Notes under the pieces: generated by a model
Databases searched by the model: none
What the model saw: only the letters and a program-made list of their open reading frames with translations
What the model was told of the DNA's origin: nothing
Shown: positions 14,040 through 52,691 of the stretch, piece by piece
Numbering within the stretch: position 1 is the stretch's first letter
Layout: each line of letters opens with the position of its first letter
Assembly (NCBI RefSeq): GCF_947486615.1
Contig: NZ_CANKUD010000002.1
Span: 124,001 to 188,000 of the forward strand
DNA: 64,000 nt
Direction: 5' to 3'
From: an uncultured Modestobacter sp.
Lineage (GTDB): Bacteria > Actinomycetota > Actinomycetes > Mycobacteriales > Geodermatophilaceae
Made by a program: the position numbers and the translations under genes

Positions 14040-14141
14040 GGCCCCGCTGCAGGGTCCCGCCGCGAGCTCGCGAGTGGTGGGGTCAGGCCCCGTCCCGAGG
14101 CTCACCCCGAGCCTGCGTGGGGTGATGAGGACGGGGTCCTT
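14040..14141 (-). repeat. Stop-adjacent hairpin repeat, compound copy (M48 gene 3' end)
   Basis: Downstream of the M48 stop, AAGGACCCCGTCC pairs with GGACGGGGCC with a single bulged A (14086-14141). A second half-element follows (14040-14085), with TCGCGAGCTCGCGGCGGG and GCAGCGGGGCC. This is one of five sites of a dispersed family; see 23048, 39975, 48510 and 52634. It probably terminates transcription. Confidence 0.7.
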
Positions 14142-14150
14142 CCACCTTCT

Positions 14151-14771
14151 TCAGTCGACGGCGCCGGGCTCCAGGTCCGCGTCGTCCGGCCGGTCACCCC
14201 GGGAGCCGAACTCGAACCCCTCGAGGAAGCCCAGCGCCCGCTCGGCCTGCGGATAGGCCTGCACCAGGGCCCAGAACCGCGCGTCGTGGCTGGCCTCGAG
14301 CAGGTGGGCCAGCTCGTGCACCAGCACGTAGTCGACGACGAACTCGGGCATGCCGCGGAGCCTGCTGGACAGCCGGATGGACCGGTCCGCCGGCGTGCAG
14401 GAGCCCCATCGGCGGTGCTGGTTGTCCACCCAGCGGACGGTGGCCGGCACGGCACGGCCGCCCAGGTGGGCGGCGGACAGCTCGTGCGCGCGGGCCATCA
14501 GGTGCTCGTCGGAACCGAGGTTGCGCCGGCGGCGCTCCTCGCGGGTCTGCAGCTTGGCGACCATCTGGTCGACCCAGCGCCGTTCCTCGTCCGGGCTGAA
14601 CGCGGCCGGGATCAGGACGATGGTGCGACCGTTCTCCCGGTAGGCCGTGACCGTCCGGCGGCGGCGGGCACTGCGGCGGACCTCCACCTCCGGGGTGGGG
14701 CGGGGAGCCGTCCGCGCGGCGGGGACGGCCGTCGACGCAGCCGGCTGGCGGCGGTCAGGTCGCTGGTGCAC
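14151..14771 (-). CDS. M48/YgjP-type (SprT-like) metallopeptidase
   Basis: About 206 residues. The N-terminal ~45 are basic and disordered (RRSARRRRTV). RWGSCTPADRSIRLSSRL is the YgjP/DUF45 signature, followed by zinc-binding VHELAHLLEASHDARFW (~152-168), which contains HExxH and the third ligand His. It is soluble and has no signal peptide. YgjP relatives are uncharacterised hydrolases, sometimes next to DNA-repair genes. The start is uncertain: GTG 14771 is the best in-frame choice but lacks a ribosome site. It is divergent from the ThiF-like gene across a region rich in DnaA-box-like motifs. Confidence 0.85.
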   Translation of the reverse strand: MHQRPDRRQPAASTAVPAARTAPRPTPEVEVRRSARRRRTVTAYRENGRTIVLIPAAFSPDEERRWVDQMVAKLQTREERRRRNLGSDEHLMARAHELSAAHLGGRAVPATVRWVDNQHRRWGSCTPADRSIRLSSRLRGMPEFVVDYVLVHELAHLLEASHDARFWALVQAYPQAERALGFLEGFEFGSRGDRPDDADLEPGAVD

Positions 14772-23045: not shown

Positions 23046-23047
23046 CG

Positions 23048-23105
23048 GCCCCGCTGCAGGGGCCCGCCGCGAGCCTGCGAGCGGTGGGGGGCGGCGGGGT
23101 CCTTC
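23048..23105. repeat. Stop-adjacent hairpin repeat between convergent genes
   Basis: On the minus strand AAGGACCCCGC pairs with GCGGGGCC leaving one bulged A; the inner arm reads CTCGCAGGCTCGCGGCGGG. It starts 3 nt from one stop codon and 2 nt from the other, so it can serve as a bidirectional terminator. Confidence 0.75.
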
Positions 23106-39935: not shown

Positions 39936-39969
39936 GGGGCCCGGGACGCCGATCGGCGTCCCGGGCCCC
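39936..39969. terminator. 34-bp perfect palindrome between moeZ and the TIGR03086 gene
   Basis: Arms 39936-39950 and 39955-39969 with GATC between them (GGGGCCCGGGACGCC and its complement). It lies just past the stop-adjacent repeat of moeZ, giving two hairpins in series. Confidence 0.7.
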
Positions 39970-39974
39970 GGGCC

Positions 39975-40033
39975 GGCCTCGTCTCAGGGTCCCGTGGCGC
40001 GCGGAGCGTGTCGCGGGGGGAGACGAGGTCCTT
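39975..40033 (-). repeat. Stop-adjacent hairpin repeat (moeZ 3' end)
   Basis: It begins with the base next to the moeZ stop: AAGGACCTCGTCTC pairs with GAGACGAGGCC, again with one bulged A; the inner segment is CCCCCCGCGACACGC. The stem sequence differs from other copies on both arms. Confidence 0.78.
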
Positions 40034-48276: not shown

Positions 48277-48507
48277 GTGGAAGTCAAGATCGGTGTCCAA
48301 CACTCCCCCCGCGAGCTGGTCATCGACAGCCCCAAGACCCCCGACGAGATCGCGGCTGAGGTGTCCAAGGCCATGAGCGCGTCCAAGGACGGCCTGCTGA
48401 CGCTGGTGGACGAGCGCGGCCGCCGCGTCGTCGTCCCGGTCGACCGGATCGCCTACGTCGAGATCGCCGAGGCCGATCAGCGCCGGGTGGGCTTCATCGC
48501 CGGCTGA
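48277..48507 (+). CDS. DUF3107 small protein
   Basis: 76 residues, matching the conserved small protein TB9.4/Rv3208A: VEVKIGVQHSPRELVIDS, DEIAAEVSKAM, LLTLVDERGRRVVVP and IAYVEIAE. Soluble alpha/beta fold of unknown job. GTG 48277 is chosen because GAGGAGG lies upstream. It is followed directly by the stop-adjacent hairpin repeat. Confidence 0.9.
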   Translation: MEVKIGVQHSPRELVIDSPKTPDEIAAEVSKAMSASKDGLLTLVDERGRRVVVPVDRIAYVEIAEADQRRVGFIAG

Positions 48508-48509
48508 CG

Positions 48510-48569
48510 AAGGACCCCGGTGCCCCCCGCGACTCGCTGACGCTGGTCGCGGGCCCCTGCACCGGGGCC
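48510..48569 (+). repeat. Stop-adjacent hairpin repeat (DUF3107 3' end), clearest copy
   Basis: Starting 3 nt past TGA: AAGGACCCCGGTGC, then CCCCCCGCGACTCGC, then GGTCGCGGGCCCCT, then GCACCGGGGCC. Outer stem (11 bp plus the bulged A) and inner stem (CCCGCGAC/GTCGCGGG) stack into one long hairpin. Confidence 0.8.
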
Positions 48570-48583
48570 GTACGAGCCTTGCC

Positions 48584-48619
48584 GACAGGGCGTCGCCGCA
48601 CCCGCGGCGGCGCCCTGTC
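48584..48619 (-). terminator. Terminator hairpin of the ferritin-like gene
   Basis: GACAGGGCG...CGCCCTGTC arms with inner CGCCGC/GCGGCG, 6 nt past the stop at 48626. Confidence 0.75.
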
Positions 48620-48625
48620 GTCGTG

Positions 48626-49701: not shown

Positions 49702-51420
49702 CTGACCTCCACCGAGAACACCCCCGTCGAGAACACCCTGGCCGCTCCCGAGCTGGAGCGCGCCGAGAGCGGCGCCCCCGCCCCCGAGGAGCTGGAGCAG
49801 CAGGTCGAGGAGCTGGGCGGTGCCCCCGTCGCCAGCGACAGCCCGCTGTTCAGCGACTTCGACGTGCACCCCGACATCGTGGCCGCGCTGGCCGAGGTCG
49901 GGATCACCCGCACCTTCGCCATCCAGGAGCTGACCCTGCCGCTGGCCCTCGCCGGCAACGACCTCATCGGGCAGGCCCGCACCGGCACCGGCAAGACCCT
50001 GGGCTTCGGCGTCCCGCTGCTGCAGCGCGTCGTCCCCGCCGCCGAGGGCGGTGACGGGGTGCCGCAGGCGCTGGTCGTCGTCCCGACCCGTGAGCTGTGC
50101 GTGCAGGTCTCCCGCGACCTCGCCGCCGCCGGCGCCAAGCGCGGCATCCGGGTGCAGGCCATCTACGGCGGCCGGGCCTTCGAGCCGCAGGTCGCCGCGC
50201 TGCAGGCCGGCGTCGAGGTCGTGGTCGGCACCCCCGGCCGGCTGCTGGACCTGGCGCAGCAGGGCCACCTGATCCTGGGCAAGGTGCGCGGCCTGGTGCT
50301 GGACGAGGCCGACGAGATGCTCGACCTGGGCTTCCTGCCCGACATCGAGCGCATCCTGGCGATGGTCCCGGACAAGCGGCAGACGATGCTGTTCTCCGCG
50401 ACGATGCCCGGCCCGATCGTCACCCTGTCGCGGTCGTTCATGACCCAGCCCACGCACATCCGGGCGCACGGCAACGACGAGGGCTCGACCGTCCCGCAGA
50501 CCACGCAGTTCATCTACCGGGCGCACAACCTGGACAAGCCCGAGCTGCTCTCCCGGGTGCTGCAGGCCCGCGACCGCGGCCTCGTCATGGTCTTCTGCCG
50601 TACCAAGCGCACCGCGCAGAAGGTCGCCGACGAGCTGGTCGACCGCGGGTTCGCCGCGGCCGCCGTGCACGGTGACCTCGGGCAGGGCGCCCGCGAGCAG
50701 GCGCTGCGCGCCTTCCGGGCCGGCAAGGTCGACGTGCTGGTCGCCACCGACGTCGCCGCCCGCGGCATCGACGTCACCGGCGTGAGCCACGTCGTGAACT
50801 ACCAGTGCCCCGAGGACGAGAAGACCTACGTGCACCGGATCGGCCGGACCGGGCGTGCGGGGAGCACCGGCGTCGCCGTCACCCTGGTCGACTGGGACGA
50901 CATCCCCCGCTGGCAGCTGATCAACAAGGCGCTGGAGCTGGACTTCGCCGACCCGCCGGAGACCTACTCCACCTCGCCGTGGGTCTACACCGACCTCGAC
51001 GTGCCGACCACGGCCACCGGCCGGCTGCCCCGCTCGCAGCGGACCCGCGAGGGACTGGGCGCGGAGACGCTGGAGGACCTGGGCGAGACCGGCAAGCGGC
51101 AGAAGACCGGCGGCCGGACCGGGGGCAACCACTCCGGCCCGGGCCGGGACGCCGTCGCCCGCACCGACGAGGACCAGCCCTCGGCCGGCCCGCGCAAGAC
51201 CCGGTCGCGCCAGCGCACCCGGGGCAGCGGCGCCGCCGCGGCCGGTGCCGCCGCGGCGCTGGGCACGGACTCCCCCGCCGCCGACGGCGCGGCCCCGGTG
51301 GCTGCCGGGGCCGCCGAGGACGGTGCGGCCGGCCGGCCGCGGCGTCGGCGTCGCCGGGGTGGCCGGGGTGGCAACGGCGGCGGCGGCAACGGCGGCGGTG
51401 GCAGCGAGTCCGTCGCCTGA
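49702..51420 (+). CDS. rhlE: DEAD-box RNA helicase RhlE-like
   Basis: 572 residues if started at CTG 49702. Q-motif FAIQELTLPLALAGNDLIG, motif I ARTGTGKT (~93-100), PTRELC, VGTPGRLLD, DEAD in VLDEADEM (~201), SAT (~231), ARGIDV, and HRIGRTGRAG (~378). The C-terminus is basic and Gly-rich (RRRRRRGG then GGNGGGG), typical of RNA-binding tails. No ATG/GTG precedes the Q-motif in a sensible place; CTG with GAGGCGAGAGAA upstream fits MTSTEN-like starts. An ATG at 49441 overlaps the promoter and is rejected. The next gene starts on its stop (TGATG). Confidence 0.9.
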   Translation: MTSTENTPVENTLAAPELERAESGAPAPEELEQQVEELGGAPVASDSPLFSDFDVHPDIVAALAEVGITRTFAIQELTLPLALAGNDLIGQARTGTGKTLGFGVPLLQRVVPAAEGGDGVPQALVVVPTRELCVQVSRDLAAAGAKRGIRVQAIYGGRAFEPQVAALQAGVEVVVGTPGRLLDLAQQGHLILGKVRGLVLDEADEMLDLGFLPDIERILAMVPDKRQTMLFSATMPGPIVTLSRSFMTQPTHIRAHGNDEGSTVPQTTQFIYRAHNLDKPELLSRVLQARDRGLVMVFCRTKRTAQKVADELVDRGFAAAAVHGDLGQGAREQALRAFRAGKVDVLVATDVAARGIDVTGVSHVVNYQCPEDEKTYVHRIGRTGRAGSTGVAVTLVDWDDIPRWQLINKALELDFADPPETYSTSPWVYTDLDVPTTATGRLPRSQRTREGLGAETLEDLGETGKRQKTGGRTGGNHSGPGRDAVARTDEDQPSAGPRKTRSRQRTRGSGAAAAGAAAALGTDSPAADGAAPVAAGAAEDGAAGRPRRRRRRGGRGGNGGGGNGGGGSESVA

Positions 51421-52631
51421 TGGCAGGCCCCCTCCCGACCTCTGGCGCGCTCGGGGCGGGTCCCGGGAGGGGGCCGGCCAGGCGCCCGCCACGGCGGGTC
51501 TGGATCTGGACGGCGGTCACCCTCGTGGTGGCCGCCGTCGCCGTGTTCCTGTGGCGCACCTCCGACGTGGTCGCCACCTCCCGCACGACGGCACCGCCGG
51601 CCACGGTGCCGGACGAGGCGCCGGCCGCCGAGCTGAGCCAGGCATGGTCCGCGGCGACGACCGACGGCCCACGGCGGGCGGTCGAGGGTGGCCGGGTGCT
51701 GGTCACCGACGAGCACGGTGTCGCCATGCTGGACGCCACCACCGGCGAGGAGGCCTGGCACTACCGCCGGTCCAACGCCACGCTGTGCGACGCGACCGCG
51801 GTCGACGGCAGGGTGATCGTGGCCTTCCGCACCACCTCGCGCTGCAACGAGCTGACCGCCCTGACCGCGGCCACCGGCGAGCGGGACTGGTACCGCAACG
51901 TCCGGTTCCGCACCGACGTCGACCTGGCCAGCACCGACCAGATCCTGCTGGCCAGCAGCCCGACCGGCGTCGTCACCATCGACCCGGCCGGCAACAACAC
52001 CCGCTGGCGGTACGCCCCGCCGACCGACTGCCGGCTGGTCGGCTCCGACGTCGGCAGCTCCGGGGTGGTCGTGCTGCAGCGGTGCGCGGACACCGGCGTC
52101 CTGCAGGTCAGGCTGCTCGACGGCTTCGGCGGCACCGAGATCTGGACCCGCGAGGTGGACACCGGCACCAGCACCGCCCGGCTGGCCGGGGTGGACCGGC
52201 TGGTCACCGTGGTCGTCGACGACCGGGTGCTGGTCTTCTCCCCGGTCGACGGCACGCCGCTGCCCGACCTCGACCTGCCCGCGCTCCCCGCCGGGGCGGA
52301 GCCGCAGAGCGAGCCGCTCCAGCAGGCCGGGGTCGGGGACGTCGCGCTGCTGTGGGCCCGCGGCACCGCCTACGCCCTCGACCAGTCGACCGGGCTGCCG
52401 TTGTGGCAGGTGCCGGCCCGCGGCCTGCCCTCGGCCGGGACGACCGACGAGGCGGGGGTGAGCACCGTGACCGTGCCGGAGGACGGCGCGTTCGTGCAGC
52501 GCACGCTGGCCGACGGCACGGAGCTCGCCCGGTCCACCACCGGGGACGACGTCCCACTCGGGGGGCGGACCTCCCTGCTGGGCCCGGTCGTCGTCTACGG
52601 CACCGCCGACGAGGTCCTCGGCCACCGCTGA
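51420..52631 (+). CDS. Membrane-anchored PQQ-like beta-propeller protein
   Basis: 403 residues. A short basic N-terminus, one membrane segment (~27-45, VWIWTAVTLVVAAVAVFLW) and an outer propeller of seven PQQ/WD-type blades, with repeated TGEEAWHYR, ATGERDWYR, GGTEIWTRE and STGLPLWQVP strands. Cysteines LCDAT, RCNEL, DCRLV and RCADT may pair. Rv3212 is its counterpart next to rhlE. Role unknown; it may be a sensor or assembly scaffold. ATG shares a base with the rhlE stop. Confidence 0.85.
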   Translation: MAGPLPTSGALGAGPGRGPARRPPRRVWIWTAVTLVVAAVAVFLWRTSDVVATSRTTAPPATVPDEAPAAELSQAWSAATTDGPRRAVEGGRVLVTDEHGVAMLDATTGEEAWHYRRSNATLCDATAVDGRVIVAFRTTSRCNELTALTAATGERDWYRNVRFRTDVDLASTDQILLASSPTGVVTIDPAGNNTRWRYAPPTDCRLVGSDVGSSGVVVLQRCADTGVLQVRLLDGFGGTEIWTREVDTGTSTARLAGVDRLVTVVVDDRVLVFSPVDGTPLPDLDLPALPAGAEPQSEPLQQAGVGDVALLWARGTAYALDQSTGLPLWQVPARGLPSAGTTDEAGVSTVTVPEDGAFVQRTLADGTELARSTTGDDVPLGGRTSLLGPVVVYGTADEVLGHR

Positions 52632-52633
52632 AG

Positions 52634-52691
52634 AAGGACCACCCTTCCCCCCACGCCTCGCACGCTCGGCGCGGGCCCCTGAAGGGTGGCC
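52634..52691 (+). repeat. Stop-adjacent hairpin repeat (beta-propeller 3' end)
   Basis: AAGGACCACCCTTC pairs with GAAGGGTGGCC, bulged A kept, 2 nt past TGA. Stem bases differ from other copies on both arms, which is compensatory change. Like the copy at 48510 it is followed by GGCCGTAC. Confidence 0.8.

Follow-up and report, generated by a model that had tools for sequence, protein, structure and literature searches.

The window, by which we mean the whole 64,000-nucleotide stretch of DNA analyzed here, contains several copies of a short hairpin whose anatomy recurs well over 100 times and which usually begins within a few nucleotides of a stop codon. We conclude that this element is probably a short, dispersed, mobile palindromic DNA of the REP/MITE kind. 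It has so far been found in only one actinobacterial family, presumably the Geodermatophilaceae, and its register with stop codons is the unusual part of it. A mobile palindrome of this kind fits the evidence better than a terminator. The hairpin repeat that a first-pass annotation had reported from the window is confirmed as an observation, and the interpretation given here relies on the set of copies found in the genome holding the window (4.70 Mb, hereafter the own genome) and in its relatives.

In the window, the 58-nt hairpin occurs as five near-complete copies, together with a weaker one and a partial one. All five sites described by the first-pass annotation are present in the sequence, with their AAGGACC and GGCC feet, a bulged A, and matched outer arms. 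The copies at 48510..48569 and 52634..52691 lie on the + strand, the former 2 nt past the TGA (48505-48507) of a DUF3107 gene and the latter 2 nt past the TGA (52629-52631) that ends a gene encoding PQQ/BamB-like repeats. The other three full copies lie on the - strand. One, at 39975..40033, immediately follows the TGA of a ThiF/rhodanese gene, which we take to be moeZ-like; another, at 23047..23104, sits between convergent genes, 2 nt past the TGA of a NUDIX gene and with its far end 1 nt from the stop of a + strand gene; and the third, at 14086..14141, carries type B arms (GTCCTC/GGGAC) and lies 9 nt past the TGA of a YgjP-like peptidase gene. In the order of their positions, the five offsets are thus 9, 2, 0, 2, and 2 nt, in keeping with the proximity to stops initially described, including the one site at about 9 nt. 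The site initially given as 14040-14141 does contain this last full copy, but it is not a single element: its remainder, 14040..14082 on the - strand, is the 3' half (inner hairpin and 3' arm) of a second copy, recognized by a covariance-model match at 14051-14082 (31.7 bits) together with its sequence. The 5' arm of this half copy is missing and the tail GTTCCAGCA comes next; the full copy is nested within the remains of the second one (TGAagAAGGtgg-AAGGACC).

The weaker copy, at 51424..51475 on the + strand (29.1 bits), starts 3 nt past the stop of a gene ending at 51420, and in the relative G018 a strong copy of 72.2 bits follows the orthologous stop. None of the four relatives compared has the element at the stop orthologous to that of the 52634..52691 copy. 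Two separate hairpins, neither assigned to a strand, accompany the full copies: GACAGGGCG...CGCCCTGTC at 48584..48619, downstream of the 48510 copy, and GGGGCCCGGGACGCC-GATC-GGCGTCCCGGGCCCC at 39936..39969, beyond the 39975 copy. A known Rfam RNA was ruled out: searching the whole window at the gathering cut-off returned two tRNAs only and placed the element in no family, and a permissive search of 48480-48620 gave three matches far under the cut-off, all starting at 48567 or later. As a side observation, the end of the YgjP-like metallopeptidase gene (window 14151 to about 14700, - strand) was missed by our codon-score gene caller, and the long frame there, which is also on the - strand and reaches to 16844, has a Pfam match only near its C-terminus.

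Read in its own orientation across the five copies, the element follows the scheme AAGG-A-CCCC[NNNN]C CC CCC A CCNC TCGCASGCTC GNGG C GGG CCCCT G[N'N'N'N']GGGG CC. The outer stem comprises 11 pairs, with an A bulged out after GG; the spacer between the two stems is unpaired, CC standing against CCCCT; and the inner stem, which has an A.C mismatch in most copies, closes a loop of ~10 nt. The arms co-vary, while the feet, the bulge, and the spacer are constant. A tail, GTTCCAGCACGTCACC, extends the element to ~76 nt in a minority of own copies (10 of 144 start with GTTCC after GGCC) and in many copies of other species. A second arm type (GTCCTCCTCA...GAGCCTCGGGAC) seems less strictly docked to stops than the main type; examples are C2:209570, 307584, 311316, and 138086, C8:121729, and C4:123188.

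The first-pass annotation had proposed building a covariance model and searching this and related genomes. A simple pattern, AAGGACCCCN{10,40}GGCC, gave 48+48 matches in the own genome compared with 7+5 for a reversed control. We then used a covariance model, R1, built from 23 copies beginning at AAGG, so that the model holds no information on stops. Against the own genome, R1 returned at least 154 matches at E up to 10, at least 147 of them scoring 37 bits or more, and further copies were found in relatives. The total lies above 147, since a contiguous stretch of 457,610 b searched by itself yielded 24 matches of at least 37 bits where the genome-wide list has 20; in addition, diverged copies are under-counted because the seeds were drawn by a pattern fixing AAGGACCCC and GGCC. 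The analysis of flanks covered 144 of the 147 matches of at least 37 bits.

Pairing of the outer arms is maintained across this set. In the seed alignment of 23 copies, 98.8% of the outer stem is paired and both sides have changed in 6 of the 11 pairs. Among 93 non-seed copies, none identical to a seed, 94.3% of cells pair, as opposed to 79.8% after shuffling, and covariation scores 0.368 where shuffled controls reach 0.126 and slid controls at most 0.109; the underlying alignment was fitted to the covariance model and is hence biased toward the structure. The compensatory stems and fixed bulge noticed in five copies therefore hold in further copies. The type of pair, however, does not bear out the accompanying claim of selection on an RNA fold. 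The 1009 outer-stem cells of the 93 copies comprise 954 Watson-Crick pairs, 15 G-U, 23 A-C, and 17 others; because G-U is no commoner than A-C, the data do not point to selection on the sense RNA, and the pairing is explained as well or better at the DNA level or by copying from arm to arm. Folded one by one as DNA, five copies surpass shuffles only modestly (z from -0.5 to -3.4), and it is therefore the set of copies that carries the case.

The register with stop codons is nearly exact. Of 144 copies, 118 begin -2 to +9 nt from a same-strand coding-frame stop, compared with 97 of 3000 random intergenic points drawn, like our backgrounds for CTGA counts and separate hairpins, from one 457 kb stretch of one contig; gene ends were taken from our own codon-score caller, which missed at least one real gene (the YgjP-like gene at 14151). 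Removing the seeds leaves 98 of 121 copies docked. Two outcomes that the first-pass annotation had named as speaking against it, copies lying at random relative to stops and arm changes that are not compensatory beyond the first five sites, were thus examined: positions are not random, and compensation holds in further copies. At an offset of exactly 2 nt we found 81 of the 144 copies but only 5 of the 3000 random points. All 81 of these stops are TGA, and 78 are preceded by C to form CTGA, compared with 241 of 367 background TGA stops (Fisher p 7e-10), making CTGA-NG-AAGGACC the commonest junction; G precedes AAGG in 83% of the 81 copies and follows GGCC in 89%. At TAG stops, the copy begins at +3 in seven cases and at +0 in two. 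Altogether, the 118 docked stops comprise 103 TGA, 10 TAG, and 5 TAA, and the 424 background genes use 385, 33, and 6, respectively. Tail-bearing copies of named Geodermatophilaceae behave similarly, as 55 of 68 with a recognized 5' half sit -2 to +3 nt from a coding stop; this set leaves out 22 matches lacking a recognizable 5' half and two too near a locus end, and at least four of its 13 misses look like wrongly recognized 5' ends.

Docking is also seen at the far end, where an opposite-strand stop begins 1 nt past the foot in 11 copies. For nine of the 26 copies that lack a 5' dock, the distance from the far end to an opposite-strand stop is 0-7 nt, and nine are preceded, at 0 to 4 nt, by a TAG that terminates no coding frame. 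Six of these nine frame-less TAG copies lie between divergent genes (C2:57351, C6:283346, C6:63816, C12:28962, C7:229572, and C3:161377, with the TAG 0 or 3 nt upstream). Copies in such places may affect promoters.

Two simple accounts of the register were considered. CTGA alone does not seem a sufficient target: the 457 kb stretch holds 366 intergenic CTGA that are not stops against 230 at stops, and none of the 144 copies uses a non-stop CTGA at that spacing, the 78 with CTGA at -6 to -3 all being located at coding stops. Nor does the stop generally seem to be brought by the element, since filled and empty alleles mostly share the stop and its codon position in the alignments viewed. Exceptions to a native stop are 7 of the 144 own copies, in which the stop arises where gene and element join (offset -1 or -2), as T/AA, TG/A, T/GA, or T/AG (C18:16983, C14:49248, C8:30076, C1:227203, C5:166357, C11:138303, and C1:551424). 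The gene end at C2 176631 is TGA in the filled allele but TAG in four empty ones; among moeZ-like stops, TAG is frequent where a copy sits at offset 0, and others have TGA.

Comparison between relatives revealed considerable turnover. We compared the moeZ-like, NUDIX, and DUF3107 stops across the family at 30 loci each, own included: some loci carry the element, some do not, and the arms differ. All 30 moeZ-like proteins end in LPTY, and the stop position is therefore native; past this stop, a locus from another genus (L111) has a copy in the opposite orientation, and G014, G005, and G018 have shortened remnants. In syntenic stretches of four same-genus genomes, 242 own genes have an orthologue, and a model match at most 75 nt from the stop was found in the own genome and a relative for 11 genes, in the own genome only for 9, in a relative only for 6, and in neither for 216, so that presence is one-sided for 15 of the 26 genes with the element in the own genome or a relative. 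In these counts, "empty" denotes no model match (at least 29 bits in the own genome, at least 33 in relatives), shortened remnants thus count as empty, and an element between convergent genes is counted twice. Of the own-filled genes with a G018 orthologue, 8 of 19 are filled in G018 as well, compared with 5 of 192 own-empty genes; sites are therefore partly inherited and partly gained or lost. This presence and absence at orthologous stops supports the mobile, REP-like palindrome that was among the options initially raised.

Some loci record changes in finer detail. At C2 172507/172626, where the DUF3107 hairpin lies, the own copy occupies one of two convergent stops, the copies of G014 and G005 occupy the other, and G018 and G021 have neither. 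The NUDIX copy of G018 has lost only its inner hairpin, which sits between CCCC repeats. This loss, the nested and tandem copies, and the duplications of gene ends fit DNA-level dynamics. Direct flanking repeats, as expected from target-site duplication, were not above shuffled pairs except in two tandem duplications, both of which include a gene end; duplications of 2-3 bp are compatible with this result, and the divergence of the species compared blurs the exact ends of insertions. At C2:307584-307718 (L072 19584-19718), two different copies in reverse orientation alternate with repeats of a gene end, each repeat comprising the final 22 nt of the gene with its stop; G018 and G014 have a single gene end and no element there. 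At C1:232095 (L010), a copy lies between 31-nt direct repeats with the apparent 3' end of another copy upstream, probably a tandem duplication of the element together with a gene end.

The element is confined to one family in our searches. R1 matched 32 of 59 genomes, own included, comprising 23 of 23 of the genus and 9 of 12 other family members; the family members without a match are single sampled genomes of three further genera. No match was found in 24 genomes of other families of the order, and a search of 198 genomes across the phylum, under stricter filters, matched the own genome only. A 20-mer of the tail occurred in at least 116 stretches, and all 80 listed belong to Geodermatophilus, Blastococcus, Modestobacter, Klenkia, or unnamed Geodermatophilaceae; it was absent from viral contigs. 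Searching for a mobilizer, we found no RAYT-type transposase (Y1_Tnp, PF01797) in 57 family genomes at E up to 0.001, and none in the own genome at E up to 10. An integron integrase over the cut-off was found in none of 39 genomes, a sample of 23 from the same genus (own included), the only genus of the element's family in it, and 16 from other families of the order. Sub-cut-off matches to that profile occurred in all 39 genomes and in all 14 control genomes, and thus look like XerC/D-type recombinases. Within a single strain, we saw no transposition or excision, and no transposase linked to the element was found. Literature searches on Geodermatophilaceae stem-loops, Geodermatophilus palindromic repeats, stop-codon REPs, and mobile palindromes, in mostly non-subscription journals, gave no title on the element; the accessible portion of one Geodermatophilaceae genome paper describes CRISPR repeats only.

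The element resembles several known systems without coinciding with any of them. Integron attC sites lie behind a stop, act as a folded single strand, and have extrahelical bases, an unpaired spacer, and variable but matched arms. Our element shares the stop position, bulge, spacer, and arms of this kind, but its consensus lacks the GTTRRRY/RYYYAAC boxes of attC, and an integron attC was ruled out by the lack of an integrase over the cut-off in the 39 genomes. REPs, according to an excerpt of one study (PMC3733652), are short imperfect palindromes that are high-copy, extragenic, clustered, and marked by a fixed foot, and that form lineage-limited families. The same holds for our element with respect to copy number, extragenic location, imperfect palindromy, clustering, a fixed foot, and lineage limits. 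It differs in having no fixed GTAG or CGTC tag at either end (81 TGA+2 copies), its foot being NG-AAGG, in its length of 58-76 nt as opposed to 20-40 for REPs, and in stacking an inner on an outer hairpin. With no Y1 transposase in the 57 family genomes or the own genome, a REP/RAYT element in the strict sense was ruled out, although the same excerpt states that CGTC REPs, too, are without a dedicated transposase (PMC3733652). Some E. coli REPs also lie within 15 nt of a stop, where they stall ribosomes, as stated in the part available of PMC5082802. The MIRUs of mycobacteria are an earlier actinobacterial example of a small repeat that is apparently mobile and settles at gene borders with little harm; they are described as carrying a small ORF, coupled to the gene that follows, and as inserting at start codons (PMC12548453), whereas our element is a hairpin behind stops. 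Uptake-sequence terminators likewise are hairpin-forming and built on a repeated short motif, inverted pairs of which may terminate transcription (PMC2267715, in the section available); there the motif itself repeats, whereas here the arms vary and only the feet and core are fixed. Of the marks of a MITE, presence and absence at orthologous sites was found, with remnants counted as absent, and target-site duplication was not.

A terminator would be the conventional role for a hairpin behind a stop, and one lacking a U-tract and possibly acting in both directions, as is typical of GC-rich actinobacteria, would match the position of the element, its stability as RNA, and pairing without strand preference. 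Convergent neighbors are indeed enriched (52 of 117 copies compared with 108 of 402 in the background). Past the stem of 81 copies, however, T makes up 2, 35, 16, 6, 6, 9, 6, and 7% at +1 to +8, so no T-run is present, as noticed at the outset. Furthermore, genes carrying the element often keep a hairpin of their own. A separate hairpin below -22 kcal/mol was found in 40% of docked genes (n=118, scored in the 80 nt past the element), 51% of element-free genes (n=177), and 21% of random stretches (n=150), so that most of this signal remains, though somewhat lower, at about twice the random level. The lower share in docked genes would itself agree with a terminator role. The DUF3107 hairpin is present alike in the own genome, where the element follows this stop, in G014 and G005, where it follows the convergent one, and in G018 and G021, where both stops lack it, and moeZ-like genes of relatives are followed by similar hairpins with a full, shortened, or absent element. 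These downstream hairpins make a terminator weak as the main role, and the suggestion of one in the first-pass annotation finds little or no support; a simple terminator is made unlikely by the missing T-run and by the DUF3107 hairpin being kept regardless. Given also the turnover between species, we regard even the U-tract-less variety as distinctly improbable. That the copies are chance or convergent GC-rich palindromes has next to no probability: high GC does yield many hairpins, and single DNA folds of five copies are modest, but the anatomy is fixed in well over 100 copies, the pattern count far exceeds its reversed control, covariation holds in non-seed copies, and the element is restricted to one family, the phylum search matching the own genome only.

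A stronger competitor is a functional hairpin, held by selection inside the footprint of the ribosome just past the stop; there it would slow release, block read-through, or protect the mRNA 3' end, its copies having spread by recombination and been kept where useful. Its register with all three stops near background usage, the location of all 78 CTGA copies at coding stops, the partial retention at orthologous stops, and the stalling attributed to stop-proximal REPs agree with such a role. Same-genus species that lack the element at the same stop do not, and neither do the absence of a G-U preference, the 9 of 26 undocked copies at a TAG without a coding frame (6 of them between divergent genes), or the 17 copies, out of 65 with a same-strand gene next, that end at most 40 nt from its called start. 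We consider this explanation possible but unlikely. The mobile palindrome, which we hold to be the probable explanation, would work as follows. The single-stranded DNA of the element would fold, a recombinase would read the fold and not the arm sequence, and it would attach the AAGG end close behind a CTGA or a TAG; insertions would survive best in the short gap between the stop and the gene's own terminator hairpin, because protein and terminator would both stay intact there. As a side effect, the mRNA would acquire a strong hairpin right behind the stop that may slow ribosome release or 3' decay. Against mobility, some sites are retained as a functional element would be (8 of 19 in G018 compared with 5 of 192), and sequence targeting explains the register incompletely, given the unused non-stop CTGA. 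One reading of the register combines a short DNA target (CTGA, or TAG) with selection that tolerates insertions between stop and terminator, and the use of TAG sites without a detected gene speaks for such a target. Alternatively, spread could be coupled to translation termination, so that stop codons as such are addressed and not a DNA tetranucleotide, for example by joining to the mRNA or to nascent single-stranded DNA at a terminating ribosome and then copying back; to our knowledge, such a choice of target has no precedent in mobile DNA, and we give it only a slim chance.

Small palindromic repeats are common in bacteria. The near-exact stop register, with no RAYT found, makes this one a test case for how small repeats choose their targets, and for whether host selection or a mobilizing enzyme sets the position. 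In the own genome, a strong hairpin stands behind more than 100 genes, 4 nt past the stop in the commonest arrangement, and hairpins so placed could affect ribosome release and mRNA 3' ends. In annotation, the element should be entered as a repeat and not as a terminator. Tandem arrays of its 3' half, with 46-nt units in L353, L327, L354, and L359 and a 24-nt unit in Modestobacter excelsi (L299), offer a possible VNTR typing marker.
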